A DNA stretch of 32,160 bases from IMG/VR virus record IMGVR_UViG_3300030104_001516, positions 8,625-40,784 of that record. The stretch is one strand, 5' to 3'. The translations under genes and the position numbers were made by a program. The DNA is from a virus. Shown one piece after another: positions 1,427 through 31,909 of this stretch. How positions within the stretch are numbered: the first letter of the stretch is position 1; every line of letters begins with the position of its first letter. A model generated the notes under the pieces. That model was not told where the DNA came from. It did not search any database and saw only the letters and a list, made by a program, of their open reading frames with translations.

Positions 1427-1534
1427 ATGATAAAAATTAATTTATCTTTGTCTCCTAGTAAAAAAAGGTTGATCGAGAAAAATCTACTAAAAAATGCACG
1501 AAGGTTCTCTAAAGCAGTACTACCAAGGCTGTGA
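1427..1534 (+). CDS. possible 35-residue leader ORF overlapping the portal start
   Basis: A short ORF begins at an ATG preceded by AGGA (1418-1421, 5-nt spacer), a better ribosome site than any visible for the portal ATG at 1494. It runs 35 codons and ends 38 nt inside the portal gene in another frame. The predicted peptide is basic and begins MIKINLSLSPSKKR. It could be a leader whose translation delivers ribosomes to the portal start, or a chance ORF. No homologue is recognised, and the T7 portal N-terminus does not resemble it, so a frameshifted portal start is not supported. Confidence 0.3.
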   Translation: MIKINLSLSPSKKRLIEKNLLKNARRFSKAVLPRL

Positions 1535-16109: not shown

Positions 16110-19100
16110 ATGCCCATAGGACACATATACGAAGGAGACAACAAGCAGTCAGAGTTAGATCGTTACGGCAGTCAACTTGAGGACGTCATGAGTCGGATGC
16201 CAAACGGGGCTGACGATGCAAACTATAGACGTCTCTTAATGAAGAACAGGCATTGGACTGAAAACTTTTATAAGGCAGCAGGCAAAGGCATACTTAAAGC
16301 TACCGAAAGTACCATTAACTTTCCATTTGATTTGGCAGGTTCTGAAAAACGATTTGCTACTTTTTCAGATTACATTGCTGACAACCCTGACAGCACCCTG
16401 TTCCAGATAGTCGAAGACGTCTCCCAGTTGGGTACTGGTTTGATCACTGGAGGTGCTCTGATTAAAGGAGCTAAAGGCCTCAAGAACAACAAAGAGGCTA
16501 TTGAAGAATTAAGGCGTGCTCAATTAAGAGACGCAGGCGTGCGTGGAGGGAGTAAAAGACTTGGAGCTAAAATGTGGGACACTGCTAAAAGAGGCGCGTT
16601 CCACGGTGCTGTTGCTGAAATGTTAGCCTTTCGAGGACAAGATGAAGCATTATTACTAAGTGCTTTCTTTGACAAACATCCTGATTACAAAACTGCTTTT
16701 GATCAGGTAACAAGTCAGGAGGGGTGGGAAAACAACACGGTTGAAGAGAACGGGTATAGTTTTCAAGCTGCCTTAAAAAACATAAAAGGTCGTGCAGCTT
16801 TTGCAGGCGAAGGAGCCATAATAGGCGCGTTGGCTAACTTCCTTATGGCGGGAGCAGGTGCTGCATGGAGAGCAGCTAAGGGGGAAAGCAAAGGAGCTTT
16901 AGAGTCAGCAGCACGAGGAACGGATACTATTGGTGATGATGCTGCACAAAAAACAGCAGACAAAGCTGACGGAGTTGATGAAATCGATGATACTTCTTTA
17001 AAGGCAAGTCAGGAAGATGAAGCCAACAAAGCGTTGTCTCAAGCACGAGATGATTTACACGAAGCTGAACTAGATGCTAGGGCTGCAATGGAAGATGGGC
17101 AACCAAAGGTACGTGATGACGATAGCACTGCCACACGTAATACTGATTTGATGCCCGAAGAAGCTGACGATTTTTTACGTCCTGAAGCAACAACATCAAA
17201 AGGCATCAACAAAGACGTGTACACACAGGAGCCTATCGCAAGAGACACTCCTATTAGTGTGAAGACACAAATCCTCAAAGGGGGAGCACGTACTGCTTTT
17301 GAAAACAACACAGTACTTTTAAACAAGAACAAAGCGGTAAGTGAGTTCAATCTGTCTAGTCCCAATGCTGAAAAATTTACAGGAGACAATGGCTTCAATG
17401 CCAAAGACATTTTTGACACCGCAGATGACTACCAACGCTTTTTAATTGAGAAAGAAAAAGCACGACAGTTCTTTCCAAGATTAAAGAAAGAATCAAAAAA
17501 GGCTTATGAAGCACGTGTAGAAAAACACGCTATAAACGAAAGCAAACGCTTAGGTTTGGGCAACTGGTACAAGTATGAGTTTCGTGCTCCAGCCAAACTC
17601 TCTCATCTAAAATTGAACGATGATGAGTTGAAGATGCTGTTTAAAGAAGATCATGCTGAAGGTGCTAAGACAATGGTAGACATGTTGCGTGGCACATTCA
17701 AAGACAGTGCAGGTAAAACTGTAAGGTTTACTCCTGAAGAAATACTAGCACAGGCATCAAAGGTCATGCGCCTAGACACGTCGTTTACCGACAACGGAAT
17801 GCAATATTTCCAAGGACGTTTCATGCACCTTTTCATGGACTCCTATAAACAAAATTTTGAGAAGATTTCAGACGCTGATACTTTTGCTAAAGCTGTAGGA
17901 TACGTTAACCAACCAAAGGACATGAGCTTGGATGACATGTTGAGAAATCACATGTTTGATTCAATAGACGATTTAGCAGCTTCTACCGGATTGTCTTCAC
18001 GCAGTGCAATGCACCGGATAACAAAAGGTCGTGGTGCTTTTGATCAGATTTTTGATTCAATGGACATGTCTCGGATGGCCAACCTAGACACAGAAGTCAT
18101 GAAAGAAATGAACGCACGCATCATGGCTTACCGTCTGACACAGGCTATCGGTATGAAAAACTACCGAGACCTAGCTAAGAAAATTGCTAACTCAACTATG
18201 GAGGATTTAAAAACTACTCCTGATGGACAGCAATTAGTCAAAGAGTACATGATTGAAATGGAAAAGCAGGCTGCACGTATTGAGCAGATGCAGAAGCTAC
18301 GTAGAGCTTCAGGAAAAGTCCTGCGATCATGGCGCGACTTTAACGATGTAGGTCTTACTGGAATTGAAGGTGGAAAGCTATTGGCTGAAAAAGGTGGGCT
18401 AGGCAACCTCAAGAAACACGCTCAACGTACTGACGCAATCTTTGATGCTGCAGATAATCAGTTGGACGGGGCAACAGCAGCTTCAGACTACTTGGTAAAA
18501 ACAACCAACTGGATAGATGTCCACAACGAATATTGGCTAAATTCCCTTTTAAGTGGCACAAAAACTCAAGTTGTGAACATGTTATCTACAGGGATGCACA
18601 TGTACTACAAACCTTTAGAGGGAATTATCGGAAGTTTGGGAGACCCTCAAGCACGCCGAGGTTTCACTAAAGCATTGGTTCAGACTGCCATGATTAACGT
18701 GCAGGTTGCCAAAGTGATTGCAAAACTAGGAGCCAATAAACTCAAAAGAATGTCACGCCTTGTTGATGAGAATCAATACTTACAAGATCGTGGTGACATT
18801 TTTGCAGGAGGTTCAGGTGTGGCTACTGATTCGTACCAACAAGCACTAGGTGCAGTTGCAGGAGCACGTAAAGCCATGCGTACTGGGGATGCTACTTTAA
18901 CTCGTGGTGCTGATCTGTTTGATGTTACACCGGCTAATGTCATTGGAGGTGACTTGCTTAGTGAAGGTGCATCACAGATGGCTAAAAACACCTTAGACCA
19001 CATAGGTAACATTATAAGATTACCTAGTCGTTTAATGATCACAGGTGACGAACTATTTAAACAAATCAGCTTTAGGTCTGCAGCTATGGGAAGGCTTGCA

Positions 19101-20810
19101 GCAGATGCGTATGAAGTAGCCATTGAGCGTGGCTTAAAGCCTAGTGAAATTGATTCTGATTATATTTCTAAATATGTGGGAGATCATTTTAATGGGATGA
19201 TCAGATCATCAGGACGAAGGTACTCTCCAAAGGCTTTGAAAGAAGAAGGACGTGCTGCTTACAAACAACGCAGTGAGGAAGCTAGAGAAGGCATGGAACC
19301 TTTTGAAGTGTCTGAAGATGAGTTTGTAGAAGCATATGCAAAGCGACATCAGAATCAACAGCTAGGAAGAACATCTGATATGGCAATGGACTACGCTGAA
19401 GATGTTACTTTTACTAGGTCTTTAGACGCTGATTTAAAAGCCTTACAGGACGATGAGTTTTTAGGAAACGTAGCTGAAGATGGTTTCACACCTATACGTG
19501 TTTCTAAAAGCAGACGCTCGTTTCTGGCTGACACACAGGACATGGTGAATGCACACCCTTGGATGAGAATCCTGATGCCTTTCATACGTACTCCTGTAAA
19601 CATTATTAAGTGGCCTATTGCTAGATTAGGTAGTGTGGTGGGTGCTGACGGTAAAGTATTAGGACACGAAGTAGAGTGGCTTAAACATTTGCACTTACGG
19701 TATCAGGCAGACATGGCTAGTGGAGACCCTTTACGTGCTGCTGCCGCAAGAGGTCGCATAATGACCGGAAGATTTTACTGGGCAGGTTTTGTAAGTGCAG
19801 CCATGACAGGCACTATAACCGGAGCAGGCCCTAGCAATCCCCGCGAAAAAAGAAACCTGATGGCTACTGGGTGGAGGCCTTACTCTGTTCGCGTAGGAGA
19901 TAAGTACATCAGCTACTCTCGACTTGATCCGTTCTCTGGCGTACTGGGATTAGCTGCTGACGTCTATGAGAAGTTTGAGTACTTAGGGCGTCACGGAGAT
20001 GTAGACGACAGTTGGGTTCAGGCTATTATGATGTCAGGAGCTTATTCACTGTCGAACAACATTGCAGACAAAAGTTACTTGGCTGGAATTAACAATGTCT
20101 TACAGGCTTTAATCGATCCTGAACATGAGTTTGAATCATTAGTCAAAAAACAAACAACATCTTATCTGCCTAAAATCATATCGCAGTGGACTCCCATTAC
20201 GGATGACAATTACATAAAGAAATCGTATGGGTTGCTAGAAGGGGTGCTGCAACGCACTCCGTTTGCTAACAGCTACATCGAGCCTATGCGTAATTATTTA
20301 GGAGAACCTTTAGAAGCCATGTATGCCCCAACAGTGTGGGCATCAGGGATAAACCCGTTCATGGTTTCTAAAGATAAGAACGATAGAATCTTAGATGAAC
20401 TTGTAGCCTTGCAGTATGGTTTCGGTGCTCCTAGTCCTCGTATCAAAGGAAACAAATACTTAGACATGCGTAAGTACCGTAACGCTAAGACAGGTCGTTC
20501 TGCTTTTGATCGGTATCAAGAATTAGTAGGTGAAGTTAAAAGTCAAACAGGAGGCACGCTCAGAGACGCACTGACTGACCTGTTCAACACACGCTTTTAT
20601 CGGAATGCTACTATTCTCGCAAACAGGGATTCTTTGGAATTTAAAGGAACACATCGTGACCCTCGCATTAAAGCTGTAAAAAGCGTAATGTCAAAATGGA
20701 GGTCAGCAGCTAAAGCGCAAGTCTTGCGTGAATACCCTGATCTGTTAAAAGCTGTGCAGAGCTTTGACCAAAGCGTCAACAACCAGACATTAAAAATATT
20801 AGAAATGTAA
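16110..20810 (+). CDS. internal core/ejection protein, T7 gp16-like, without visible transglycosylase domain
   Basis: A 1566-residue protein in the gp16 position. T7 gp16 (1318 residues) spans the inner membrane during DNA ejection and has an N-terminal lytic transglycosylase. Here the N-terminus (ESTINFPFDLAG near residue 70, then LGTGLITGGALIKGAKGL) shows no E-S/G catalytic motif of soluble lytic transglycosylases. A charged, low-complexity stretch lies at about 270-360. The C-terminal third carries family motifs: RTPVNIIKWPIARLG near 1159, RFYWAGFVSAAMTGTITGAGP near 1225 and SRLDPFSGVLGLAADVYE near 1270, with hydrophobic helices that could insert into the membrane. The gene lies 1 nt from both neighbours. 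Confidence 0.88.
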   Translation: MPIGHIYEGDNKQSELDRYGSQLEDVMSRMPNGADDANYRRLLMKNRHWTENFYKAAGKGILKATESTINFPFDLAGSEKRFATFSDYIADNPDSTLFQIVEDVSQLGTGLITGGALIKGAKGLKNNKEAIEELRRAQLRDAGVRGGSKRLGAKMWDTAKRGAFHGAVAEMLAFRGQDEALLLSAFFDKHPDYKTAFDQVTSQEGWENNTVEENGYSFQAALKNIKGRAAFAGEGAIIGALANFLMAGAGAAWRAAKGESKGALESAARGTDTIGDDAAQKTADKADGVDEIDDTSLKASQEDEANKALSQARDDLHEAELDARAAMEDGQPKVRDDDSTATRNTDLMPEEADDFLRPEATTSKGINKDVYTQEPIARDTPISVKTQILKGGARTAFENNTVLLNKNKAVSEFNLSSPNAEKFTGDNGFNAKDIFDTADDYQRFLIEKEKARQFFPRLKKESKKAYEARVEKHAINESKRLGLGNWYKYEFRAPAKLSHLKLNDDELKMLFKEDHAEGAKTMVDMLRGTFKDSAGKTVRFTPEEILAQASKVMRLDTSFTDNGMQYFQGRFMHLFMDSYKQNFEKISDADTFAKAVGYVNQPKDMSLDDMLRNHMFDSIDDLAASTGLSSRSAMHRITKGRGAFDQIFDSMDMSRMANLDTEVMKEMNARIMAYRLTQAIGMKNYRDLAKKIANSTMEDLKTTPDGQQLVKEYMIEMEKQAARIEQMQKLRRASGKVLRSWRDFNDVGLTGIEGGKLLAEKGGLGNLKKHAQRTDAIFDAADNQLDGATAASDYLVKTTNWIDVHNEYWLNSLLSGTKTQVVNMLSTGMHMYYKPLEGIIGSLGDPQARRGFTKALVQTAMINVQVAKVIAKLGANKLKRMSRLVDENQYLQDRGDIFAGGSGVATDSYQQALGAVAGARKAMRTGDATLTRGADLFDVTPANVIGGDLLSEGASQMAKNTLDHIGNIIRLPSRLMITGDELFKQISFRSAAMGRLAADAYEVAIERGLKPSEIDSDYISKYVGDHFNGMIRSSGRRYSPKALKEEGRAAYKQRSEEAREGMEPFEVSEDEFVEAYAKRHQNQQLGRTSDMAMDYAEDVTFTRSLDADLKALQDDEFLGNVAEDGFTPIRVSKSRRSFLADTQDMVNAHPWMRILMPFIRTPVNIIKWPIARLGSVVGADGKVLGHEVEWLKHLHLRYQADMASGDPLRAAAARGRIMTGRFYWAGFVSAAMTGTITGAGPSNPREKRNLMATGWRPYSVRVGDKYISYSRLDPFSGVLGLAADVYEKFEYLGRHGDVDDSWVQAIMMSGAYSLSNNIADKSYLAGINNVLQALIDPEHEFESLVKKQTTSYLPKIISQWTPITDDNYIKKSYGLLEGVLQRTPFANSYIEPMRNYLGEPLEAMYAPTVWASGINPFMVSKDKNDRILDELVALQYGFGAPSPRIKGNKYLDMRKYRNAKTGRSAFDRYQELVGEVKSQTGGTLRDALTDLFNTRFYRNATILANRDSLEFKGTHRDPRIKAVKSVMSKWRSAAKAQVLREYPDLLKAVQSFDQSVNNQTLKILEM

Positions 20811-20811
20811 A

Positions 20812-21369
20812 ATGGGATACTCTAGATACATAGGAGGTGGAACGACCACATCGTCAGGTGGACTTGTTCATGCTGTGTCTAATCCAGACAACAACAATTT
20901 TTCGTGGCTCTCTCCTGACCACATACAAATATATCTAAGTACAGCAGGACAAAGCCTTAGTAGCTTTGAAGCTGCCTTAAATGCAGGCACTGTAAATCTG
21001 TTTAATCCTTCTGATGGGTATGTGCTGGCAGGAACCACACTGACCTTCACGGGATTAGCAGCAAGCAGTCAGTACAAATTCCAAATAAAAAGAGTAACCC
21101 CAAAGTTAACTCATTTTGTGGATTTCACAGCAGGGTCACCGTTGACTGAGGCTGACCTTGACAACAGCAACAAATACGCTTTATTTAGAGCGCAAGAGTT
21201 GGAAGATGAGGTCAGTGATAAAACCATATCTCTAGCCAAGATGAAATCTACAGCAAACATTACTGGAGACTTTGTTGACACAACGTCAGCACAAACAATA
21301 ACTAATAAGAATTTTCCTGACTCAACATCAGTGTTTGATGGAGGGTCTTTATCCTTTAGTGGAGACTAA
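20812..21369 (+). CDS. tail fibre anchor protein (T7 gp17 N-terminal domain only)
   Basis: This 185-residue protein matches the T7-type fibre N-terminal domain that docks onto the tail between gp11 and gp12. Motifs are DHIQIYLS (37-43), the LTFTGLAASSQYKFQIKRVTP strand pair (77-97), and FVDFTAGSPLTEADLDNSN (102-120) followed by LFRAQELEDEV. After the anchor it carries an FVDTTSAQTITNK motif common in phage fibres and then stops. T7 gp17 is 553 residues; the coiled shaft and receptor-binding head are absent here, so the rest of the fibre must come from the downstream polypeptides. It begins 1 nt after gp16, with no Shine-Dalgarno site. Confidence 0.9.
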   Translation: MGYSRYIGGGTTTSSGGLVHAVSNPDNNNFSWLSPDHIQIYLSTAGQSLSSFEAALNAGTVNLFNPSDGYVLAGTTLTFTGLAASSQYKFQIKRVTPKLTHFVDFTAGSPLTEADLDNSNKYALFRAQELEDEVSDKTISLAKMKSTANITGDFVDTTSAQTITNKNFPDSTSVFDGGSLSFSGD

Positions 21370-21393: not shown

Positions 21394-22719
21394 ATGGCAA
21401 ATACTATTCAAGTCAAACGTCACAGTACGTACAACGAAAGCAAGAACCCAACTTCCAATCAGTTAGCTGAAGGTGAGTTAGGTTGGAATAACCACGGTGG
21501 TAGGCTGTGGATCGGAAAAAAGACATCAGGCAGCAATGTTGATGCTTACGAAGTTAACCCAACAGCGACAGCATCAGTTAAAGGATTAGCGTCTTTTGAT
21601 GCTACCGATTTTGCTGTTACAGGAGGAGCAGTGTCTATCGCAGCGATGAATGCTAACCTCCTAACAGGCACAATTAATAACGCACGGTTATCGTCTATCC
21701 CTGCCAGTGCGTTAGCAGGAAGTATAGGAAACAGTAAGTTATCTAACAATTCAATCACCATAGGAGGCACAGCAACTGCTTTAGGCGGCACAATAACCGA
21801 CCTGACTGCGTTGACTGATCTTGATCTTACTGCAGGTAACAAAACTATTTTTGATGGTGTAGGTTCCAGCACGCTGACGATAGGTGCTTCAGGCACTACT
21901 ATTAAGATTGCAGGTGACCTGACTGTTGAAGGTGATACTACCACCATAAACACAGCTACGCTTACGGTTGAAGATGATGTAATTGAAATTAGTTCAGGAA
22001 ATGATTCACGTGCTAACGCTGATGGCTCTGGCATTAAGATTCCTTGTTCTGGTGCTGATTCAGACATTACTCTTGGTTGGCAGTCCAGTACTGCATCTTG
22101 GTACTCACCTGAAAACATTAAGTCCAATAATCAAGTCATTGCCAGTGGTGGTAACTCCAGCCAATGGAATACTGCTTATAGTGACCGCATGAAGTGGGAT
22201 GGGGGTGCTACAGGGCTGAATGCAGCTACAGCACGTGCAAGCCTTGATCTTGAAATTGGCACAGACGTACAGGCCGTCCTTACTTTTGGAATTGCAAGTG
22301 GCAATGCTCTTAAAGTCGATGGCTCTCCAAATGACAACGAATACGCTAGGTTCACTGCTACAGGCCTAGAAGGAAGAACTGCAGCCGAGCTAAAGTCTGA
22401 TTTGGGTTTAGGAGGTCTCGCTGACGCCAGCACCGTCAACAACGGCAACTGGTCAGGCACTGATCTTGCAGTAGCTAACGGTGGTACAGGAGCTTCAGAT
22501 GCTACGACTGCACGTACAAACCTCGGAGTAACTGCTTCATGGGTACAGAACAACCACGCTTCATACAATTCTTTTAATATTACCACAACAGGCAAAGAGG
22601 TAATTCAAACTGTAACTGTAAATAATACAGGTCATGTCACAAACGTCACTAAGCGTACTACAAATTTCTTGGACGATGATGACACGATTGATGGTGGGAC
22701 TGTAACATGGACTAACTAA
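21394..22719 (+). CDS. tail fibre protein 1 (beta-repeat shaft)
   Basis: A 441-residue Thr/Ser/Gly/Ala-rich protein with fibre character. The N-terminal cap (MANTIQVKR, LAEGELGWN, RLWIGKK) is shared in pattern with the next protein. The middle contains repeated beta-strand segments such as GDLTVEGDTTTINTATL and VEDDVIEISSGN, seen in many phage fibres. Near 22480-22530 it has the ANGGTGASDATTARTNLGV motif, a common shaft-repeat element. The last 40 residues contain IQTVTVNNTGHVTNV, a degenerate single copy of the unit that is repeated six times in the following gene. Probably trimeric and attached to the anchor or to the next fibre protein; the contact is inferred. Confidence 0.75.
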   Translation: MANTIQVKRHSTYNESKNPTSNQLAEGELGWNNHGGRLWIGKKTSGSNVDAYEVNPTATASVKGLASFDATDFAVTGGAVSIAAMNANLLTGTINNARLSSIPASALAGSIGNSKLSNNSITIGGTATALGGTITDLTALTDLDLTAGNKTIFDGVGSSTLTIGASGTTIKIAGDLTVEGDTTTINTATLTVEDDVIEISSGNDSRANADGSGIKIPCSGADSDITLGWQSSTASWYSPENIKSNNQVIASGGNSSQWNTAYSDRMKWDGGATGLNAATARASLDLEIGTDVQAVLTFGIASGNALKVDGSPNDNEYARFTATGLEGRTAAELKSDLGLGGLADASTVNNGNWSGTDLAVANGGTGASDATTARTNLGVTASWVQNNHASYNSFNITTTGKEVIQTVTVNNTGHVTNVTKRTTNFLDDDDTIDGGTVTWTN

Positions 22720-22737: not shown

Positions 22738-25700
22738 ATGGCAAACACAATAAAATTAAACCACAATGCTAATAGTGGAAAAACACCTACTGATCTTGCC
22801 GCTGGGGAGATTGCAATCAACAGTGCAAACAAAAAGATATGGGTAGGAACAGACGATACTACTAATGGGCAGGTACTTTTATTTGACCATTCGATCTACA
22901 GCACTGACCTTAGTGACAACGATACCACTTACACTTCTGGCGGTGGCTTATCTTTGTCTGGTACTGTTTTCAGTCATAGCGATACTTCTAGTCAAGGCAG
23001 CATTAACCTCAGTGGACGTCAGTACATTCAGGATTTAACTCTAGATACTTACGGACACGTCACAGGATATGGATATGGTACTGAAACAGTAACTAACACC
23101 AACACTACCTATAGTGCAGGCTCAGGACTAAACCTAAGTGGAACTACATTCAGTCACTCAGACACCTCTAGCCAAGGTAGTATCAACCTAAGTGGACGTC
23201 AGTACATTCAGGATTTAACTCTTGATACCTATGGTCACGTCACGGGGTATGGTTATGGCACTGAAACAATAACTGACTCTGACACAAACACCACATACTC
23301 TGCAGGCACTGCACTAACCCTAAGTGGGACTACGTTTAGTTTAACGAACAGTACTCAGTACCTCAAAAAATTATCAGCGGGGGCTGCAGCTAATTTAGAC
23401 ACTTACACAGATAACGGGTTTCGTTCAGTTTCTCATACAGGACACAGTAAGTTGTTGTTGAGTATGAATGCTGGAGGTTCTACAGGAACATTCCAATTAG
23501 AAAACCATTATAATGGTCAGTGTCGCGTTAGAAACAAAGTAGACAGCAGCACTTGGGCAGATTGGGAGTACTTAGTTTCTACAACTACAGGCCAAACAGC
23601 GATTTCAGGAACCATACTGCACACAGGAAACCTAACTGCAGGGGGAGGCTTAACACGCTCAAGCACTACAATTTCGCATAGTGATACTTCTAGTCAAGGC
23701 AGCATTGACGGTACTGGACGTCAATACATCCAAGATGTCACTTTAGATACTTACGGTCACGTCACAGGATTAGGAGTGGCGACTGAAACAGTAACCAATA
23801 CGAACACAACGTATACAGCAGGCACTGGTTTAAGTCTTAGCGGGACTACATTTAATATGAATGCCGCTGGGAATGGAGTGAGGGGCGGCGTCATGCTAGG
23901 GTATCCAGAGTCAGGACAATTTTACCCAGTTGAAGCTCACGCCACTTCCGAAAGACTGTATGTAAACGTGCCGTGGCAAAACACTACGTATGTTGTACAG
24001 GATGGAGGTCTTACTCAGAAGAATTTTACTACAACTCTAAAAAGTAAGCTGGATGGCATAACTGGATATAATTACTCGGCAGGTACAGGACTAACCCTAA
24101 GTGGAAGTACGTTTAGTTTAACTAACCCTACAGTTCTTGCTAGTGCAGGTAACTATGTTTGGAGTCAGTCTACAACAGCAGGAAATTACACCACAGGGCT
24201 ACAATGCTCTTTTGTTCGGAATGCCGATGGTTGGCCTAATTACGGTTCAGTATTACATGTTGGTGCTAGAGGGGGAAACGATGCTGGTGGTGATTTTCAA
24301 ATTTATTGTGGTCATGGAAGTAGCTACGGCGGGAATTATTTAAGAGTAAGAAACGCAGATAATAATGCTAGTCCGACTGACGCTTGGACTGATTGGAGAA
24401 CGATTTGGGACTCAGGCAATGTCTCTGCTGGAACTGGTATAAGTATTTCTGGAACCACTATTACAAACACTGTAACAAACACCAACACTACCTACTCAGC
24501 AGGCTCAGGACTAAGCCTTAGTGGAACTACATTCAGTCACTCAGATACTTCTAGTCAAGGCAGCATTAACCTAAGTGGACGCCAGTACATTCAGGATTTA
24601 ACTCTAGATACTTACGGTCACGTTACAGGGTATGGTTATGGCACTGAAACAGTAACTGACTCTGACACAAACACTACCTACTCTGCAGGCACAGGACTGT
24701 CTTTGAGCGGCACGACGTTTAGCGTAGACAGTAATGTACTGCGAAAGACTACTTATTATAACGCAAACACATGGATGCAGTTTAGTGGTCAGTACGGACT
24801 TTACTGGAATTCTGGTGTAGGCTCACAATGGCACATTTATCCGATAAACACGACTACGATGCTGTTCCAGACAGCAAATTCATCTGATAAGACCTGTTTG
24901 CAATTTCGAGGAGGTTCTACTACTTACGGTAGTATAGAATTTGAAGATGACGGTAAATTTATACTTCGTGATGAAGCCAACAATGAACGCTTAGGCATTC
25001 CTACATCTGGAAGTTTTGTTCGTGATAACACTCATATTGTATGGGACTCAGGAAACGTAACCGCTGGAACTGGAATAAGCATTTCTGGAAACACGATTAC
25101 AAATACTGTAACTAACACTGACACTAATTATTATCTTAATGGATTATCGTGGAATAGCTCCAACGGGGTACTAACAGCAACTGTCAGCGGGACTACTACT
25201 CGTACAGTTGATCTAGATGGAAGATATTCAACTACAGATACAAACACCACGTACTCAGCAGGCTCAGGACTAAGTCTTAGTGGGACTACTTTTAGTCACA
25301 CAGATACCTCCAGCCAAGGCAGTATTAACCTAAGTGGACGTCAGTACATTCAAGATTTAACTCTGGATACTTACGGTCACGTTACAGGGTATGGGTATGG
25401 TACTGAAACAGTAACTAACACTGACACTAATACTACCTACAGTGCTGGCACAGGACTAAGTCTAAGTGGAACTACTTTTGGTCTTAATGAAAGTTTAGGG
25501 CGAAGCTACATTGAAATGGGCAACAGCACCGGAAGTGTTTCTAACGATGGAAGTTGGAACGCTCGCTTCAATGTTGCTGGCAGTTCTCATGCTCGTATAG
25601 ATGTATATGAAAATGATGATGGAATCAAAGCAACTATGTATGCACATACAGGGCATACAGGGCCACGCTTTGGTTCCATGTCAAACCATCCGGTTAACTT

Positions 25701-26766
25701 CATGTGCAATGGAACTAACCGTGCGACTCTCACAACAGCAGGAAGTTTAAGCACAACTGTTCAAGGAACACTTTGGGGAACAAGCTCTAAATTTACTGCA
25801 GGGAGTAACCTTTCATGGAGTGGTTCTACATTAAATGCCACCGATACAAATACAAATACTACGTACTCTGCAGGATCGGGATTAAGTCTTAGCGGAACTA
25901 CATTCAGTCACTCAGATACCTCAAGCCAAGGCAGTATTAACCTAAGTGGACGTCAGTACATTCAGGATTTAACTCTGGATACCTATGGTCACGTAACTGG
26001 ATATGCTTATGCTACAGAAACAGTAACCAATACAGATACAAATACGTGGAGACCAGTAGAAGCAGGTGGAAACACTCTTAGCGGTAGTGAAACCTTAGAG
26101 TTTAAATCTGGTTCTGGTATATCTATTTCAGAAAGCGGAGGAGAAGTAACTCTTACTTGTACGGTCACAGATACGAATACGTGGAGGTCTATAAGTGATT
26201 CGGTAACGTCCACATCATCAAGCGTTTCAGCCTCTAGTGCTGCAGCTAAAGCTGCTTATGACCGTTCTTGGGTCAGTTTCGTAGCCACAGGTACTGGACT
26301 TTCAGGAACAGTCACCTCTGCAGGAACAATCAGTCTCGCTTTGGGCAATCTTGCTGATATGTCGGAATCGTGGGATAACACAGCCGACGAATTCATTGTT
26401 CTAAATAATGGAAGCCAAGCCAGAAAATTGTCTTCAGAAATATTTGGTCTGAACGCTTTTACAGATACTGCTATTCTTACTACTGGCCAAACAAACACTT
26501 TGATTGGCGCGTATAGTGGTGGAATACCTAACCTGACTTCCGCAGGGTGTTTTGGTGGAGCCTCAAGTGGCGTAACTAACCAAGGGTTAAGCAGGGACGT
26601 TGCTTACAAAATAATGAACAACTCCAACTCCACAGTAGCTTGTGTAACAACACAAAACGGGAGTTCAGAGGAATACCTTCGCTACAAAAATGGAGGCAAC
26701 TTTTCGTGGGAAACTATTGAGTGGAACCACATTCAAGGGATGAGCGCATTAGACCCTTTACCATAA
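22738..26766 (+). CDS. giant modular tail fibre protein with six 41-residue repeats
   Basis: A 1342-residue Ser/Thr/Gly/Tyr-rich fibre. After a cap (MANTIKLNHN, LAAGEIAIN, KIWVGTDD) it alternates a 41-residue unit, with core SQGSINLSGRQYIQDLTLD then TYGHVTGYG, with different inserts. Inserts at about 23341-23640 and 24112-24420 look like pyocin-knob domains (a WADWEYL or WTDWRTIWDSGN ending after an R-x-R strand); those at about 24721-25056 and 25480-25800 are other beta-rich modules. About 14 copies of a shorter motif, GTGLSLSGTTF, mark the joints. The end has SVSASSAAAKAAYD, common near fibre C-termini, and a unique last 150 residues. Probably the receptor-binding shaft. The stop shares a base with the next start (TAATG). 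Confidence 0.85.
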   Translation: MANTIKLNHNANSGKTPTDLAAGEIAINSANKKIWVGTDDTTNGQVLLFDHSIYSTDLSDNDTTYTSGGGLSLSGTVFSHSDTSSQGSINLSGRQYIQDLTLDTYGHVTGYGYGTETVTNTNTTYSAGSGLNLSGTTFSHSDTSSQGSINLSGRQYIQDLTLDTYGHVTGYGYGTETITDSDTNTTYSAGTALTLSGTTFSLTNSTQYLKKLSAGAAANLDTYTDNGFRSVSHTGHSKLLLSMNAGGSTGTFQLENHYNGQCRVRNKVDSSTWADWEYLVSTTTGQTAISGTILHTGNLTAGGGLTRSSTTISHSDTSSQGSIDGTGRQYIQDVTLDTYGHVTGLGVATETVTNTNTTYTAGTGLSLSGTTFNMNAAGNGVRGGVMLGYPESGQFYPVEAHATSERLYVNVPWQNTTYVVQDGGLTQKNFTTTLKSKLDGITGYNYSAGTGLTLSGSTFSLTNPTVLASAGNYVWSQSTTAGNYTTGLQCSFVRNADGWPNYGSVLHVGARGGNDAGGDFQIYCGHGSSYGGNYLRVRNADNNASPTDAWTDWRTIWDSGNVSAGTGISISGTTITNTVTNTNTTYSAGSGLSLSGTTFSHSDTSSQGSINLSGRQYIQDLTLDTYGHVTGYGYGTETVTDSDTNTTYSAGTGLSLSGTTFSVDSNVLRKTTYYNANTWMQFSGQYGLYWNSGVGSQWHIYPINTTTMLFQTANSSDKTCLQFRGGSTTYGSIEFEDDGKFILRDEANNERLGIPTSGSFVRDNTHIVWDSGNVTAGTGISISGNTITNTVTNTDTNYYLNGLSWNSSNGVLTATVSGTTTRTVDLDGRYSTTDTNTTYSAGSGLSLSGTTFSHTDTSSQGSINLSGRQYIQDLTLDTYGHVTGYGYGTETVTNTDTNTTYSAGTGLSLSGTTFGLNESLGRSYIEMGNSTGSVSNDGSWNARFNVAGSSHARIDVYENDDGIKATMYAHTGHTGPRFGSMSNHPVNFMCNGTNRATLTTAGSLSTTVQGTLWGTSSKFTAGSNLSWSGSTLNATDTNTNTTYSAGSGLSLSGTTFSHSDTSSQGSINLSGRQYIQDLTLDTYGHVTGYAYATETVTNTDTNTWRPVEAGGNTLSGSETLEFKSGSGISISESGGEVTLTCTVTDTNTWRSISDSVTSTSSSVSASSAAAKAAYDRSWVSFVATGTGLSGTVTSAGTISLALGNLADMSESWDNTADEFIVLNNGSQARKLSSEIFGLNAFTDTAILTTGQTNTLIGAYSGGIPNLTSAGCFGGASSGVTNQGLSRDVAYKIMNNSNSTVACVTTQNGSSEEYLRYKNGGNFSWETIEWNHIQGMSALDPLP
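22972..26028 (+). repeat. six interspersed copies of a 123-nt coding repeat
   Basis: Copies are at 22972-23094, 23152-23274, 23674-23796, 24535-24657, 25294-25416 and 25906-26028, all in frame in the giant fibre gene. Five encode nearly the same 41 residues; copy 3 is diverged (SIDGTGRQYIQDVTLD, then GLGVATET). The DNA copies differ at many synonymous sites while the protein is held constant. Copies 1 and 2 are separated by 57 nt; later ones by several hundred nt of non-repeated modules. Confidence 0.95.
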
Positions 26767-27719
26767 TGGGATTAGTAGATTCTGACATACTTTTAGTTGA
26801 AAGAAGTGGCACGGTTTACAAAGAAACTTTTGGCAACCGCACTAACATAGAAGACAGCGATATACTGTTGGTTGAAGCGGCGTCTACTGACAATAGTAGG
26901 ACAAACGGTAAAGTGTACAGATGTACCTATGGCGATTGGAAACAGGATATTTCTGGAGGAGGCGGTGGCGGTAGTGCCACGCACGGCTGGGGATCAGCTA
27001 ACACATCCATTGCAGGTGCGATTAGTACTTCATCTACGTCTATATCTAATGATTCTACTAACGCCTATAACATCTTCCATCAATCCATGTCGGTTACAGG
27101 AGGAACTTCTGTTACTGGTAGGTTGTACATAGGAATGAGGATGCGAGGAGTTACCTCGTATTACCATGATTTTTGCCTAGCTGTTGTTCAAATAGTTCAA
27201 AGTAACGGCGCATCGTTTAGGACTGATTCTACTTATACAAATGGATATGATTGGAATTCTAGGGATACGTTAAGCGCACAATACCAATCAAGCAGTTTTT
27301 TCAACTGGCAGACTAGCACAGGATTTACACATGCTTATACTACAGACCCTAGTACCCTTAGTTTTTCAACTCTAGCAACAGCGAGTAACGCTAGGTGGGG
27401 CAGGGGGATGAGTACAGGTTCTAGTTACACAGGGGCTGACAATGGGGTTTACTCCCCTTCAGGTTATTCTGGTGGAGGAGGGTCAGTACTTCCCACTTCT
27501 GGAACTGTCTCTCAAACAAGTGGGACTCCTTTTCTCTATACGGAAACGTCAGGAAGCGGATACCAAATAGGAAACACTACAATATGGCTTAGGTCTCCTG
27601 AAATAACCGTCTATAATGGCGATATTTTGAAGATGTTGTACCTTGGGATTGGGGGAAATTCTTCAACAAATGGACTGGGACGCTACGACGATGACACTAT
27701 TTACTTTAGATTTAAATGA
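26766..27719 (+). CDS. fibre-tip or adhesin-like protein with DSDILLVE adaptor and polyglycine linker
   Basis: A 317-residue protein with no named family I can assign. The motif DSDILLVE occurs twice (residues 5-12 and 30-37); the second copy is followed by SRTNGKVYRCTYGDW, then a run of six glycines (64-69). The remaining 250 residues are Ser/Thr/Tyr/Gly-rich, beta-like, with a second glycine stretch (SGYSGGGGS) near 236. The ATG at 26766 overlaps the previous stop by one base; an upstream in-frame ATG at 26721 lies inside the fibre gene and would add 15 residues unlike the rest. The design (short adaptor, flexible linker, variable beta domain) suggests an exchangeable distal receptor-binding module, by inference. 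Confidence 0.65.
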   Translation: MGLVDSDILLVERSGTVYKETFGNRTNIEDSDILLVEAASTDNSRTNGKVYRCTYGDWKQDISGGGGGGSATHGWGSANTSIAGAISTSSTSISNDSTNAYNIFHQSMSVTGGTSVTGRLYIGMRMRGVTSYYHDFCLAVVQIVQSNGASFRTDSTYTNGYDWNSRDTLSAQYQSSSFFNWQTSTGFTHAYTTDPSTLSFSTLATASNARWGRGMSTGSSYTGADNGVYSPSGYSGGGGSVLPTSGTVSQTSGTPFLYTETSGSGYQIGNTTIWLRSPEITVYNGDILKMLYLGIGGNSSTNGLGRYDDDTIYFRFK

Positions 27720-28432
27720 GTACACCTGTAGGAACAGACAGAATTTTAGTTGAAGCGAATTCAACCACAGGAGGCCGTACATCCGGTCAAATTTACACAG
27801 AAACTAAAACTAACTGGGATACAGCAGCCGGAACCGGAGGGGGTGGTGGAGGAGGTGGAGGGAGTGCTAACAACGGTCTCGCCATTCAGTTTGCTCACGC
27901 CTCTATGGGCAGCTATTCCAACTCTGGTTCCCATTTTAAAATAACGACGGGTAAAATGTTTGGCACTCGTACCGATTCAAACGGCGCGTATGGCTTGACG
28001 TCAACAACCTCAAACAGCGATAACGGGAGGCCAAACACAAAACTAAAAATAGACAACACTTGGTACGAGGTGATCGCAGGCGGTAGTAGTGATTATACTC
28101 AGACCACAAACCGAGGCCCGTTTAACGTCTACTACTGGAGATCATTTGTTAGTTGGACTCTTACTGCCTCTGAAATTTCAACTGCATGTGGGGCAACTTC
28201 AGGAACCATAAGCGCACTTGCTGTTAAAATGGATGATGCACCTACAAGGACTATGCCTAACCATTACATTGGAGTTAAGTTAGTTAGTTCAGGTGACGCT
28301 GACACAAACAACACAGGAAGCAACAACGGCAGTTACACTCAAGTATCTTTTGTAAACCCAAGGAATTGGACGAGCGCGACTGAAGAGACGTACCAAGAAA
28401 TATCATTTTCATCAAACATTTCATGGAGTTAA
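27716..28432 (+). CDS. second adaptor-polyglycine-domain protein, fibre-tip candidate
   Basis: A 238-residue protein built like its upstream neighbour. TDRILVEANSTTGGRTSG with QIYTETKTNW at residues 7-34 parallels the neighbour's DILLVE...RTNGKVY...W module; nine glycines (41-49) follow, then a beta-rich Ser/Thr/Asn domain ending in SFSSNISWS. The distal domains of the two proteins are not obviously alike, although both include aromatic and Ser/Thr-rich strands. It overlaps the upstream gene by 4 nt (ATGA) and lies 1 nt before the next. It may be an alternative or additional fibre tip; no function is established. Confidence 0.65.
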   Translation: MSTPVGTDRILVEANSTTGGRTSGQIYTETKTNWDTAAGTGGGGGGGGGSANNGLAIQFAHASMGSYSNSGSHFKITTGKMFGTRTDSNGAYGLTSTTSNSDNGRPNTKLKIDNTWYEVIAGGSSDYTQTTNRGPFNVYYWRSFVSWTLTASEISTACGATSGTISALAVKMDDAPTRTMPNHYIGVKLVSSGDADTNNTGSNNGSYTQVSFVNPRNWTSATEETYQEISFSSNISWS

Positions 28433-28433
28433 C

Positions 28434-28757
28434 ATGGCATTAAAAGCAAAATACAAGAAACCCATGCCCGAAGCACCTGACGGCAAAATAGATGCTTACT
28501 ACAGAGTGAGTGATGCACGGTGGAACTACGATAAACCTTTAGGCACGTTCGCAGAGAAGAAGATCACCTTTAGCGTTGAGGCGTTTACATTTGATGATCC
28601 AAGAGAATTACTCACAGATGATTGGCGATACGATGAAGCTGTAGGTACTTACTCCATCCCAATGCCTGAAAACGGCACAAACGTGGACACTATTGTTGAT
28701 CTAGCGTACGCACATTTGAAAACCCTTGACCATTTTGCCAATGCAGAGGATTGTTGA
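28434..28757 (+). CDS. hypothetical protein of the fibre cluster
   Basis: A 107-residue soluble, acidic protein of unknown function. It starts MALKAKYKKPMPEAPDG, contains YYRVSDARWNYD and a DDPRELLTDDW segment, and ends with a helix (VDTIVDLAYAHLKTLDHF) before NAEDC. There is no signal peptide or TM segment. It lies 1 nt after the second adaptor protein and shares a base with the next start (TGATG), so it is part of the same translational unit. A fibre-assembly chaperone or minor fibre component is possible by position, but no motif supports either. Confidence 0.55.
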   Translation: MALKAKYKKPMPEAPDGKIDAYYRVSDARWNYDKPLGTFAEKKITFSVEAFTFDDPRELLTDDWRYDEAVGTYSIPMPENGTNVDTIVDLAYAHLKTLDHFANAEDC

Positions 28758-29056
28758 TGGAGGGATTGATGGAAGACAAGCTGCTAGAACAAGGCATAGC
28801 AGTCGTGGCTCTCTTTGGGGTGAGCTACTATGTCATTCGCTTGACTAACTTCCTTTTCCGTACGCTCGCAGGCGGTCTTGATGAACACAAGGAAATAACT
28901 ATAAAACAGATAGACGCTTTGAATCAAATAAGAAGCACTTTATGTGATTTAAAGCAAGAAATGGTAAAATTACATGAACAAAATCGCATTTATAGGGATA
29001 TTGACAATACTGTCTCTCAACGCTTGCAGAACACCGAGCGGTCTAAAAGAGGTTGA
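28757..29056 (+). CDS. TM plus coiled-coil membrane protein, candidate inner-membrane spanin
   Basis: A 99-residue protein with one membrane helix (about residues 12-36) and a following amphipathic, charged helix (about 43-80: EHKEITIKQIDALNQI and LKQEMVKLHEQ). This layout is that of Rz-type i-spanins, which join inner and outer membranes in the last step of lysis. The next ORF, a lipoprotein, begins inside this gene in another frame, the hallmark arrangement of spanin pairs. I chose the ATG at 28757, which has AGAGGA (28745-28750) 6 nt upstream and overlaps the previous stop; in-frame TTG codons lie at 28751 and 28754 and another ATG at 28769. A small membrane-anchored holin accessory is the main alternative. 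Confidence 0.5.
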   Translation: MEGLMEDKLLEQGIAVVALFGVSYYVIRLTNFLFRTLAGGLDEHKEITIKQIDALNQIRSTLCDLKQEMVKLHEQNRIYRDIDNTVSQRLQNTERSKRG

Positions 29057-29201
29057 TTTATCCTTGACAGGACTAGAGATGGAGTTTTATGAACCTGTTG
29101 CACCTGTAGTGGTTGTTACTAATTCAGCCGCAACACGCGCCACATACAGAGTAATACCTAATCAGTTTCCAAAACTAATGGAAATGAATAATAAAAAATA
29201 A
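28974..29201 (+). CDS. small lipoprotein overlapping the coiled-coil protein, candidate outer-membrane spanin
   Basis: A 75-residue predicted lipoprotein: basic start (MNK), hydrophobic stretch, lipobox LNAC with cysteine 18 as the acylated residue, and a mature part of about 58 residues including LKEVDLSLTGLEMEFYEPVAP. It overlaps the preceding TM/coiled-coil gene by 83 nt in another frame, as Rz1 genes overlap Rz. It is less proline-rich than typical Rz1, and asparagine at position -2 of the lipobox is uncommon, so the spanin call is moderate. No Shine-Dalgarno site is clear. Confidence 0.5.
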   Translation: MNKIAFIGILTILSLNACRTPSGLKEVDLSLTGLEMEFYEPVAPVVVVTNSAATRATYRVIPNQFPKLMEMNNKK

Positions 29202-29203
29202 AA

Positions 29204-29503
29204 ATGGCAACAGAATACACTTGGGAAAAAACTGAACCCTACGTAAAGGACAACAAAGTTGTTCAATGGGGCCTGACGTTTAAAGCCACAAATGGTGACG
29301 TTAGTGCCGTAACAAATGAAATAGTAGATGTCCCTGAAGACGATCAAAAACCCCTAGCTGATTGGACAAATGAAGAAATTCAAGCATTTAGAGAAGGCAT
29401 TAAAGATGATCGAGGTTGGGCATCAGAACTTGAAAAACAAGTTGGAGGGGGTGAATTAGTTGCTAATTGGGATAACGCTTCGTTGTCTGTATCATCTGAA
29501 TAA
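29204..29503 (+). CDS. hypothetical small acidic protein
   Basis: A 99-residue soluble, acidic protein. The N-terminal half is beta-like (YTWEKTEPYV, VVQWGLTFKATNGDVSAV), followed by a D/E-rich loop and a helix (WTNEEIQAFREGIKDDRGW, ELEKQVGGG). Small proteins of this outline occur near the fibre genes of T7- and T4-type phages, where the role is unknown. The ATG follows an A-rich tract (AAAAATAAAAATG) without a Shine-Dalgarno site, 2 nt after the lipoprotein stop. No membrane segment or enzyme motif is present. Confidence 0.55.
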   Translation: MATEYTWEKTEPYVKDNKVVQWGLTFKATNGDVSAVTNEIVDVPEDDQKPLADWTNEEIQAFREGIKDDRGWASELEKQVGGGELVANWDNASLSVSSE

Positions 29504-29512
29504 TTTTTTGTC

Positions 29513-29761
29513 ATGGAAGAGAAACCTACCTTAATGACCGCAGAAGAAGTAGAGAAGGGCGTGTCCTTCTTGAACATCGTATATCAAGCAGCAATCAGTA
29601 ATGTGCCTACAGGACTTGTTCCAGAAGCTGCTGCAGCACAGAGGCAAGGCATACAGGAAGCTGCTCAAAATGTTGTAGACCTAATCCAAGCTCATGGGCC
29701 TTTGGCCGAAGAAAGAGCAAAAATGATGGAAGAGGCTATTGCTCCTGTTAAAAATGAATAG
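29513..29761 (+). CDS. hypothetical small helical protein
   Basis: An 82-residue, mostly helical acidic protein starting MEEKPTLMTAEEVEKGVSF, with an alanine/glutamine-rich middle (EAAAAQRQGIQEAAQNVVDL) and a charged C-terminal helix. It has no signal peptide or TM segment and resembles no family I can name. Its TAG stop shares its last base with the GTG start of the next small membrane protein, so those two are probably co-translated. Position just before the putative holin and terminase suggests a late-gene role, not further resolvable. Confidence 0.5.
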   Translation: MEEKPTLMTAEEVEKGVSFLNIVYQAAISNVPTGLVPEAAAAQRQGIQEAAQNVVDLIQAHGPLAEERAKMMEEAIAPVKNE

Positions 29762-29925
29762 TGGAAGAATACTTCAAAATCTTTGGCATCAATGGCACTG
29801 TGCTGGGTGTGGTCACCCTTACAGACGTTGAAGTTATTTTGAAGATTATTCTGCTTGTTGTTACAATAACATGGACAACGGGTAAAGCAGTGAACGAATG
29901 GCGAAAACTAAAGAACAAAAATTAG
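29761..29925 (+). CDS. 54-residue single-TM protein with GTG start, holin candidate
   Basis: A short ORF with a GTG start overlapping the preceding stop by one base fills the 136-nt gap before the small terminase gene. The predicted protein has an amphipathic N-terminus (EEYFKIFGINGTV), then TDVEVILKIILLVVTITWT as a strong membrane helix (about residues 22-40), and a basic tail (NEWRKLKNKN). T7 has its holin gene 17.5 immediately before the small terminase gene, and marine T7-like phages often carry a similar small TM protein here. The reading frame overlaps the terminase gene by 28 nt. Holin function is inferred from position and topology. Confidence 0.6.
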   Translation: MEEYFKIFGINGTVLGVVTLTDVEVILKIILLVVTITWTTGKAVNEWRKLKNKN

Positions 29926-30134
29926 AGAGTCTGTTTGATTTAGTCTGTGATGAATTAACAGGCAGGATTGTCTCTGGTGAAGCCACGTCAACTGATATCA
30001 ATGTTTCCCGTCAGTTTTTGAAGGACAATGGGGTCACAGCAACGCCTGCGGAAGCCTCCCCTCTGGAGGGTCTTGTAAATGCGTTGCCATTTCCTTCGTC
30101 TGACGAGGTTTCTAAAGCTGCAGAGGGTAACTAG
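29898..30134 (+). CDS. terminase small subunit, T7 gp18-like
   Basis: A 78-residue DNA-recognition subunit of the packaging terminase. The helix-rich N-terminus (KEQKLESLFDLVCDELTGRI) is followed by the family motif SGEATSTDINVSRQFLKDNG at about residues 26-45, as in small terminases of T7-like phages, and a short proline-containing tail. It starts 28 nt inside the small membrane-protein gene and precedes the large subunit by 47 nt. Its position directly before gp19 agrees with the assignment. Confidence 0.82.
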   Translation: MAKTKEQKLESLFDLVCDELTGRIVSGEATSTDINVSRQFLKDNGVTATPAEASPLEGLVNALPFPSSDEVSKAAEGN

Positions 30135-30152
30135 GCTCTCTCTCCATAAAAA

Positions 30153-30166
30153 GCCCTTAGAAGGGC
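30153..30166 (+). promoter_or_regulatory. small hairpin between terminase genes
   Basis: A 5-bp perfect stem, GCCCT-TAGA-AGGGC, sits in the 47-nt gap between the two terminase genes, 15 nt before the large-subunit ATG. It has no T-tract, so it is unlikely to be a terminator. It may be an RNA-processing site or may modulate translation, as the terminase ATG has no other visible ribosome site. Short and possibly fortuitous. Confidence 0.3.
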
Positions 30167-30181
30167 ATCTACGGCTCATAG

Positions 30182-31909
30182 ATGGCATACTCAGTACCTG
30201 AAGAACTACAAGACTTCAGGAACTTTCTGTACATCACGTGGAAACACCTCGGTCTTCCTGACCCTACCAAGACTCAATACGACATTGCCGAGTATGTGGA
30301 CAATGGGCCACGGCGGTGCTGCATTCAGGCTTTTCGAGGAGTAGGCAAAAGCTGGATTACGTCAGCCTACGTATGTCACCAATTGTTATTAAATCCGTCT
30401 ATGAATATACTGGTTGTCAGTGCCAGTAAGACTCGTAGTGATGATTTCTCCACTTTTACTCTAAGATTAATAAATGAGATGCCTTTGCTAAAGCATCTGA
30501 TTCCTAGAGAAGAACAACGTAGCTCAAAGATTGCTTTTGATGTGGGGCCAGCACCAGCAGCACACGCCCCATCAGTAAAGTCTGTAGGAATCACAGGTCA
30601 GCTTACCGGAAGTCGTGCAGACCTGATTGTTGCTGATGATGTAGAATCCCTAAACAATTCTCTCACTCAGCAAATGAGGGACAAGATTCAGGAGACAATT
30701 AAAGAATTTGATGCTGTTCTTAAACCTGACGGTCGCATCGTTTATCTTGGTACTCCTCAGACCGAGATGTCGATCTACAACGTGCTGCCTGAACGTGGCT
30801 ACGAAATAAGGATTTGGCCAGCAAGAGTACCTTCAGAAAAAGCAATAACAGCATACGGTCACCGACTAGCTCCTTACATTTCAGATAAGTGTAAGGAATC
30901 TCCAGAAGGCACTCCTGTTGACCCACAACGATTCGACAGTACTGATTTAGCAGAACGGGAAGCCTCTTACGGCAAAAGCGGTTTTGCTCTGCAGTACATG
31001 CTCGATACGTCATTAAGCGACGTAGGTAAGTATCCTCTGCGTCTAAGTGACCTCATAGTACACCCCCTAGACGCAGAAGTTGCATCCCCAAAGCTCACAT
31101 GGGCCTCTTCTCCAGAACTAGCGTGGAAAGACCTGCAAAGCGTAGGACTAGCAGGAGATGCCTACTACAGGCCTATGGAGGTAGCTAAAGACCACCAAAA
31201 ATACACAGGAGCCGTCATGAGTATTGACCCTGCAGGTATGGGTAAAGACGAAACTGCTTATGCTGTTGTCAAAATACTAAACGGACAATTATTCTTAACA
31301 GCTTCAGGAGGATACCTTGGGGGTTACACTCCTCCTGTATTATCGTCATTAGGTCAAATTGCTAAGTCACATAAAGTCAACCACATCATCGTAGAAAGTA
31401 ACTTTGGAGACGGAATGTTTACTCAGTTACTGAAACCTGTATTGACTAATGATGTTGGTTATCCTTGCACAATTGAAGAGGTAAGACACTCCGTCCAGAA
31501 AGAGAAACGCATAATAGACACCTTAGAGCCTGTAATGAACAGTCATAGGCTCATTGTTGACCCTAAAGTTGTCCAGAATGACTTTAGGTTAGCCTCTATA
31601 GACGCAGATAATGTAGATAATAGGAATAACAACATCGACAGTACACATAGGAAGAACATTGGGAATAACCAATTGTACCAACTGTTCTACCAGATGTCAA
31701 GACTTACTTTTCAAAAGGGTGCATTACGACACGATGACCGTCTTGATGCTCTGTCTATTGCTGTTAGCTATTGGGTGGAGCACATGGAAAGACACGTAGA
31801 ACAAGGCCTTGAAGATTACAGGCAGGAACAAATCGATAAATCCATAGAATCCTTTATGGAATCCCACAATAAGCTATGGGGGAAGACTGAATCTACTACT
31901 TGGATGTAA
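30182..31909 (+). CDS. terminase large subunit, T7 gp19-like
   Basis: The 575-residue ATPase-nuclease motor that packages DNA through the portal and cuts concatemers. Walker A is FRGVGKSW (51-58), Walker B with catalytic carboxylates is DLIVADDVE (147-155), and the SVKSVGITGQLTGSRAD segment before it is the T7-family signature. The RNase H-like nuclease shows SIDPAGMGKDE (347-357, first acidic D349), VESNFGDGMF (405-413) and HDDRLDAL (518-525). The central REASYGKSGFALQYML and YPLRL segments also match T7 gp19. Length is close to T7's 586. The start lacks a Shine-Dalgarno site. Identification is very secure. Confidence 0.97.
   Translation: MAYSVPEELQDFRNFLYITWKHLGLPDPTKTQYDIAEYVDNGPRRCCIQAFRGVGKSWITSAYVCHQLLLNPSMNILVVSASKTRSDDFSTFTLRLINEMPLLKHLIPREEQRSSKIAFDVGPAPAAHAPSVKSVGITGQLTGSRADLIVADDVESLNNSLTQQMRDKIQETIKEFDAVLKPDGRIVYLGTPQTEMSIYNVLPERGYEIRIWPARVPSEKAITAYGHRLAPYISDKCKESPEGTPVDPQRFDSTDLAEREASYGKSGFALQYMLDTSLSDVGKYPLRLSDLIVHPLDAEVASPKLTWASSPELAWKDLQSVGLAGDAYYRPMEVAKDHQKYTGAVMSIDPAGMGKDETAYAVVKILNGQLFLTASGGYLGGYTPPVLSSLGQIAKSHKVNHIIVESNFGDGMFTQLLKPVLTNDVGYPCTIEEVRHSVQKEKRIIDTLEPVMNSHRLIVDPKVVQNDFRLASIDADNVDNRNNNIDSTHRKNIGNNQLYQLFYQMSRLTFQKGALRHDDRLDALSIAVSYWVEHMERHVEQGLEDYRQEQIDKSIESFMESHNKLWGKTESTTWM

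Follow-up and report, generated by a model that had tools for sequence, protein, structure and literature searches.

Modular exchange in phage fibres, including exchange at conserved motifs, is already known. In Tetart-type exchange (1998), conserved short motifs are said to lie between variable host-recognition segments, with exchange reportedly inferred at the motifs. According to Smug et al. (2023, PMC10684548), domain mosaicism across distant phages is concentrated in tail fibres. The fibres of R-type pyocins and Alteromonas phages have globular knobs separated by shaft (PMC6363177, PMC10579305). Here, we analyzed a repeat-bearing tail-fibre gene in a 32,160-nucleotide stretch of viral DNA (the window), bases 8625–40784 of the 40.8-kb virus record IMGVR_UViG_3300030104_001516. 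The gene (22738..26766 in window positions, on the plus strand like every feature placed within it below) encodes 1342 aa. We consider it probable that its product is a fibre built from cassettes, in which a 41-residue repeat, the B box, has been amplified and partially homogenised, and in which exchange takes place preferentially at a shorter element, the a box.

The gene is the tail fibre of a T7-like phage, because it occupies the fibre position, between a PF03906 protein upstream and the large terminase gene terL downstream, among fitting neighbours (the PF03906 protein, an internal virion protein, and a T7-type terL), and because independent genes with these boxes are tail fibres by Pfam and PHROGs. 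The protein is probably trimeric. It begins with a conserved attachment segment of ~63 aa (22738..22924), which is 81–82% identical in amino acids to its counterparts in L084 and L003, two related viral contigs. At the other end, a C-terminal domain (26266..26763) is conserved in the closest relatives (62% over 154 aa with L084) and includes one copy of their shaft repeat, with 56–71% identity to the internal repeats of L084. The Peptidase_S74 chaperone domain (PF13884) was not found at the C-terminus, the window gene having zero Pfam matches. In searches with the entire protein and with parts of it, Pfam, PHROGs, and NCBIfam offered no family for the a box, the B box, or the large inserts, and PDB searches by sequence and by fold gave no significant match for parts of the fibre protein.

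A sequence-only reading of this DNA had described six 41-residue repeats conserved in protein and divergent at synonymous positions, and this description holds. The copies lie in one open reading frame (ORF) at 22975–26031, one codon off the register first given: B1 at 22975..23097, B2 at 23155..23277, B3 at 23677..23799, B4 at 24538..24660, B5 at 25297..25419, and B6 at 25909..26031. They stand far above chance, with two repeat families (D1 and D2) detected and scores of 89–99 bits against a B-box hidden Markov model. Amino acid identity is 90–98% among copies 1, 2, 4, 5, and 6, and 78–83% for the divergent copy 3. Among the five close copies, the Nei–Gojobori method (NG86) gave nonsynonymous distances (dN) of 0.011–0.049 (mean 0.03), synonymous distances (dS) of 0.39–1.17 (mean 0.7), and a ratio of ~0.05, all resting on 41 codons and thus with wide errors. 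The near-identical DNA of a recent tandem duplication was not found among these five. The copies are old and under purifying selection, in agreement with the earlier proposals that they are not recent tandem expansions and that selection holds the protein sequence.

Synonymous divergence between the copies is substantial, as had been expected, but it stops short of saturation. Codons for the same amino acid differ between window copies in 32% of cases, nucleotide identity of the five copies is 83–91% vs 71–74% for random synonymous recoding (z ~3–5), and the copies have identical runs of 23–41 nt in common. The divergence is also uneven, with codons 11–22 nearly invariant across the five (permutation P = 0.016), and a mosaic test based on the agreement of neighbouring informative sites gave P = 0.008 for all six, a pattern which fits partial gene conversion between copies. 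In other genes, codon differences between boxes amount to 57% within a gene vs 60% between genes, and those genes lack both the clustered divergence and the mosaic features; the contig L229 is an exception in codon divergence (30%). The nearest neighbour of each of the six window boxes is a box of the same gene, vs 10 of 95 boxes in other multi-box genes. The window repeats therefore look like the product of amplification with partial gene conversion and not like imported linkers, and within this gene amplification appears to dominate. Separately, constraint at the DNA or RNA level on codons 11–22, the core of the box, was ruled out, since other genes have no such tract (0.557 vs 0.570).

We modeled the a-B-a unit with AlphaFold2 (AF2) from a 45-row alignment. 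The model has one beta-hairpin in the B box (RQYIQDLT, a turn at about LDTYGH, and VTGYGYGT), and the hairpin block has predicted local distance difference test (pLDDT) values of 93 and 91. The B box is thus predicted to be a beta-hairpin segment of the shaft. Against Pfam, PHROG, NCBIfam, and PDB, the a-B unit gave chance-level matches only.

The a box is a stretch of ~17 aa, NTTYSAGxGLxLSGTTF, and the natural unit of ~60 residues comprises a 41-aa B box and an a box of ~19 aa. The window has 14 a cores, and all 12 modules (six B boxes and six inserts, I1 to I6) directly follow one. Single a boxes precede B1 (22915..22974, TSGGGL, with the core from 22933), B2 (23098..23154, SAGSGL), and B5 (25231..25296, SAGSGL), a degenerate one precedes B3 (23635..23676, TAGGGL), and double cores precede B4 (24424..24537, SAGTGI then SAGSGL) and B6 (25795..25908, TAGSNL then SAGSGL). 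The a boxes in front of inserts are at 23278..23340 (I1, SAGTAL), 23800..23853 (I2, TAGTGL), 24070..24117 (I3, SAGTGL), 24661..24723 (I4, SAGTGL), 25060..25128 (I5, TAGTGI), and 25420..25479 (I6, SAGTGL). A second linker, WDSGNV(S/T)AGTGISISG(T/N)TITNTVTNT(N/D)T, occurs after I3 and I4 (24406–24490 and 25042–25126), and a similar linker follows a domain in L095.

Residue 8 of the a box depends on the module that follows. In front of the six B boxes of the window it is G, S, G, S, S, and S, and in front of the six inserts it is always T (P = 0.002). The rule came from the window and was afterwards put to the test on other loci, where T stands at residue 8 in 6 of 81 a boxes before a B box vs 25 of 55 before other modules (P = 5 × 10−7; P = 1 × 10−4 without L229). 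With similar contexts clustered, the counts for T are 2/31 vs 13/32 (P = 0.002), and those for S, G, D, or A are 29/31 vs 11/32 (P = 9 × 10−7). The dependence is thus also seen in independent phages, and by this rule the cassette is best read as an a box plus a module. The 41-residue repeat had previously been taken as a standard connector between inserts, a role which it does not keep: since the a box precedes B boxes and inserts alike, and since B boxes form a mostly plain tandem in L229, the universal connector is the a box, and the B box is one of the modules.

The inserts differ in how widely they are found. I1 (23341..23634, 98 aa, knob-like) has relatives at ~50% identity in L168–L171, in otherwise unrelated structural genes of other phages that lack both boxes. 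I2 (23854..24069, 72 aa) is common to L017 and, in several copies, L238, and I5 (25129..25230, 34 aa) is a short module common to several genes. For I3 (24118..24423, 102 aa, ending in WTDWRTIWDSGNV) and I6 (25480..25794, 105 aa), relatives were looked for and none was found, and nothing related to I4 (24724..25059, 112 aa, ending in IVWDSGNV) was found in the viral contigs searched. I2 and I3 neighbour each other with no B box between, as do I4 and I5. The inserts had been called mutually unrelated, and BLASTP of I1 against I3 and of I4 against I6 found no significant similarity at that sensitivity; I1 and I3 do have an RVRN...W.DW stretch in common. Both also end in a W-rich motif, which we take to be one seen in knob domains. 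A sequence search for a pyocin-type knob in I1 and I3 was without match, and we use the label "knob" for the modeled I1 as a lead only.

Module exchange does take place: in the phage most closely related to that of the window, the two gene ends are kept around an unrelated 3.6-kb middle. This phage, L084 (IMGVR_UViG_3300030333_001444), is collinear with the window, and most of the surrounding genes are 75–97% identical. Within the fibre gene, the flanks have 81–83% DNA identity and the middle (22925–26550) is unrelated; DNA homology ends at 22924, where the first a box starts, and picks up again at 26551. The left junction at 22924 is identical in the comparison with L003. In both relatives the replaced middle is made up of a different repeat (LDLSEL...DEFIVLD...EIFGSNAF). 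Together with the relatives of I1 in genes without boxes, this bears out the earlier suggestion that the inserts are exchangeable modules. In other members of the clade (L091, L095, and L096/L097) the shaft differs again, above a C-terminal tail that is similar, and the shaft repeats of the orthologous fibre genes in L091, L095, and L084/L003 are unrelated to one another (NHTHNYAA, TTTASNSQTFTNKGGNISQW, and LDLSEL..DEFIVLD). L096 and L097 have one B box each, in the window's own variant (GSINLSG.NFIQDLTLDAYGHITGY).

Smaller changes were seen between near-identical genes. The members of the pair L175/L177 are exactly one box unit apart, as are those of L046/L009, where the overlap lies in a box; replacement of a box segment was also seen, and L060/L183 is among the pairs with unit gain, loss, or replacement. 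For L053/L202, homology breaks off within a B box, and all beyond that point is unrelated. We compiled 77 collapsed alignment ends, with one gene per end. Ten fell at a boxes vs 3.3 expected (P = 0.0003), 7 fell inside B boxes vs 9.9 expected, which is no enrichment, and 18 fell within 15 nt of B boxes vs 12.4 expected (P = 0.06), which is marginal. The idea that shared blocks act as exchange sites is therefore supported for the a boxes and not for the interior of the B boxes. Likewise, the expected comparison with relatives revealed a swapped middle and single-unit differences, but breakpoints were not concentrated inside the repeats. The exchange seam is likely the a box more than the 41-residue repeat.

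We propose that the shaft is built from cassettes, each an a box as connector plus a module, the module being either an inserted domain or a B box, which would form a beta-hairpin stretch of the shaft. The inserted domains would be knob-like or decorating and would likely contact or approach the host surface. Attachment of the fibre would fall to its first 63 residues and its closure to the C-terminal domain; relatives conserve these two ends, with replacement of the middle between them. B boxes may have multiplied inside the lineage, with purifying selection on the hairpin maintaining them and recombination from copy to copy making them partly uniform. Cassettes would be exchanged between phages preferentially at a boxes, and box-to-box recombination would additionally gain or lose units. 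A wider version of this idea, that many uncultured phages use a common plug-in standard, in which the connector residue marks a hairpin (S/G/D) or a domain (T/N) and the connector is the preferred exchange seam between unrelated phages, is tentative, and we lean against it.

Several observations weigh against the cassette model. The AF2 model of the a-B-a unit is a monomer with a predicted template modelling score of 0.46 and extended flanks, and gives no direct support for a trimer or a receptor. The model of I1 is poor (pLDDT 44), and its best Foldseek matches in the PDB, which include phage and pyocin fibres (9b45, 24qi, and 6cl5), are not significant (E ≥ 0.3). With the five close copies, the mosaic test is not significant (P = 0.13). 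No relative with the window's own inserts in a different order was found. The breakpoint ends come from related genes, and a conserved motif can end an alignment even where no recombination has occurred. One alternative is pure shaft lengthening, with structural repeats amplified in the gene, inserts arriving by illegitimate recombination, and the boxes having no role in exchange. It agrees with the same-gene nearest neighbours of the six window boxes, with the long tandem shaft in L229, and with the lack of relatives found for I3, I4, and I6, but other multi-box genes use a shared pool of boxes (the 10/95 above), breakpoints are enriched at a boxes, and each insert stands directly after a core; we regard it as unlikely.

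We give still less credence to the 41-residue repeat itself being both the connector and the site of homologous recombination for insert swaps. The stop inside a B box in L053/L202, the pairs differing by one unit, and the stretches of up to 41 nt in which window copies are identical could all be read this way. Against it, the inserts are flanked by a boxes and not always by B boxes (I2–I3 and I4–I5 being adjacent), breakpoints inside B boxes are fewer than expected, and the codon differences among other genes' boxes (57% vs 60%) leave little DNA homology. An assembly artefact, in which a metagenomic contig joins the fibre repeats of several phages, comes to mind for an uncultured virus with repeats prone to misassembly; the uninterrupted frame of 1342 codons, the copies distinguishable at the DNA level, the gene ends matching collinear relatives, and the recurrence of the grammar in many independent contigs make it highly improbable.

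The fibre gene sits in a T7-like gene order. The portal (1494–3071), the major head protein (4495–5727), the internal virion protein (16110–20810), and the T7-type large terminase (30182–31909) follow the expected order. The PF03906 protein (20812–21369, E = 1 × 10−9), which has the N-terminal domain of T7 tail fibres, is separate and unfused to the repeat gene, and several fibre-like genes lie between it and terL. The closest terminases of isolates are <60% identical to that of the window, which places the phage in an uncultured T7-like group. A structural protein at 12440–16108 is 33% identical to its L084 counterpart vs 55–75% for its neighbours. A second fibre-like gene (21394–22719, 441 aa) likewise has MANTI as its start and, close to its end, a weak stretch resembling a B box; it is ~80% identical to L084 over the first 298 aa and again near the end, and the L084 counterpart has an additional segment between these stretches. 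Small genes at 26721–27719 and 27716–28432 lie downstream of the fibre gene. The start motif of the first resembles SDILLVERSGTVYKET, and in relatives this motif recurs at the starts of successive genes. Compared with the window, L102 has 96–100% identity over the packaging genes (compared region 28680–31180) and 64–89% upstream of ~28680, as if the fibre-tip side had recently been exchanged between near-identical phages.

The repeat occurs in at least hundreds of matched stretches, taking the best 80 matches per scan, in uncultured viral contigs of 4 to 400 kb, and also in four genome contigs. L229:1–7905 encodes 2635 residues in an ORF that is open at both ends; its 37 B boxes alternate with a boxes, mostly in regular tandem units of 58–62 residues, and it is a putative giant fibre shaft. 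The Peptidase_S74 chaperone is present in four of nine other box genes. Searches of named phages with the whole gene (tblastn and blastn) gave zero matches; the consensus box alone found isolates, convincingly only Celeribacter phage P12053L and Roseobacter phage CRP-118. A literature search with motif strings did not find the hairpin repeat and connector grammar described, and both appear undescribed within the libraries and papers searched. As the repeat is widespread in uncultured viral contigs, yet known from two isolates only, its description would aid the annotation of fibres and of host-recognition modules in viral metagenomes, and the connector rule offers a testable grammar for permissible exchange points of fibre modules.

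Compared with known systems, the two isolates are the nearest named carriers of the box: the P12053L tail fibre and CRP-118 gp35 have one B box each, 77% and 67% identical to the family consensus, the latter in a gene with the T7 fibre N-terminus PF03906. They belong to different phage families, and their fibre domains are otherwise unrelated to the window gene. The fibre gene of L084 and L003 is orthologous to that of the window, with like termini and neighbours, but has a different shaft repeat and lacks both a full B box and every one of the window's inserts. The fibres of R-type pyocins and of Alteromonas phages have one or two knobs, whereas the window gene has many modules with no significant match to them in sequence or structure. 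The work of Smug et al. (2023, PMC10684548) is a broad survey; here we describe one defined repeat and its connector grammar. The Tetart-type system differs in its motifs and phage type, the window motif being the a box, which stands 14 times along the shaft. The likeness lies in module exchange at a conserved motif, as breakpoints in the box genes are enriched at a boxes.

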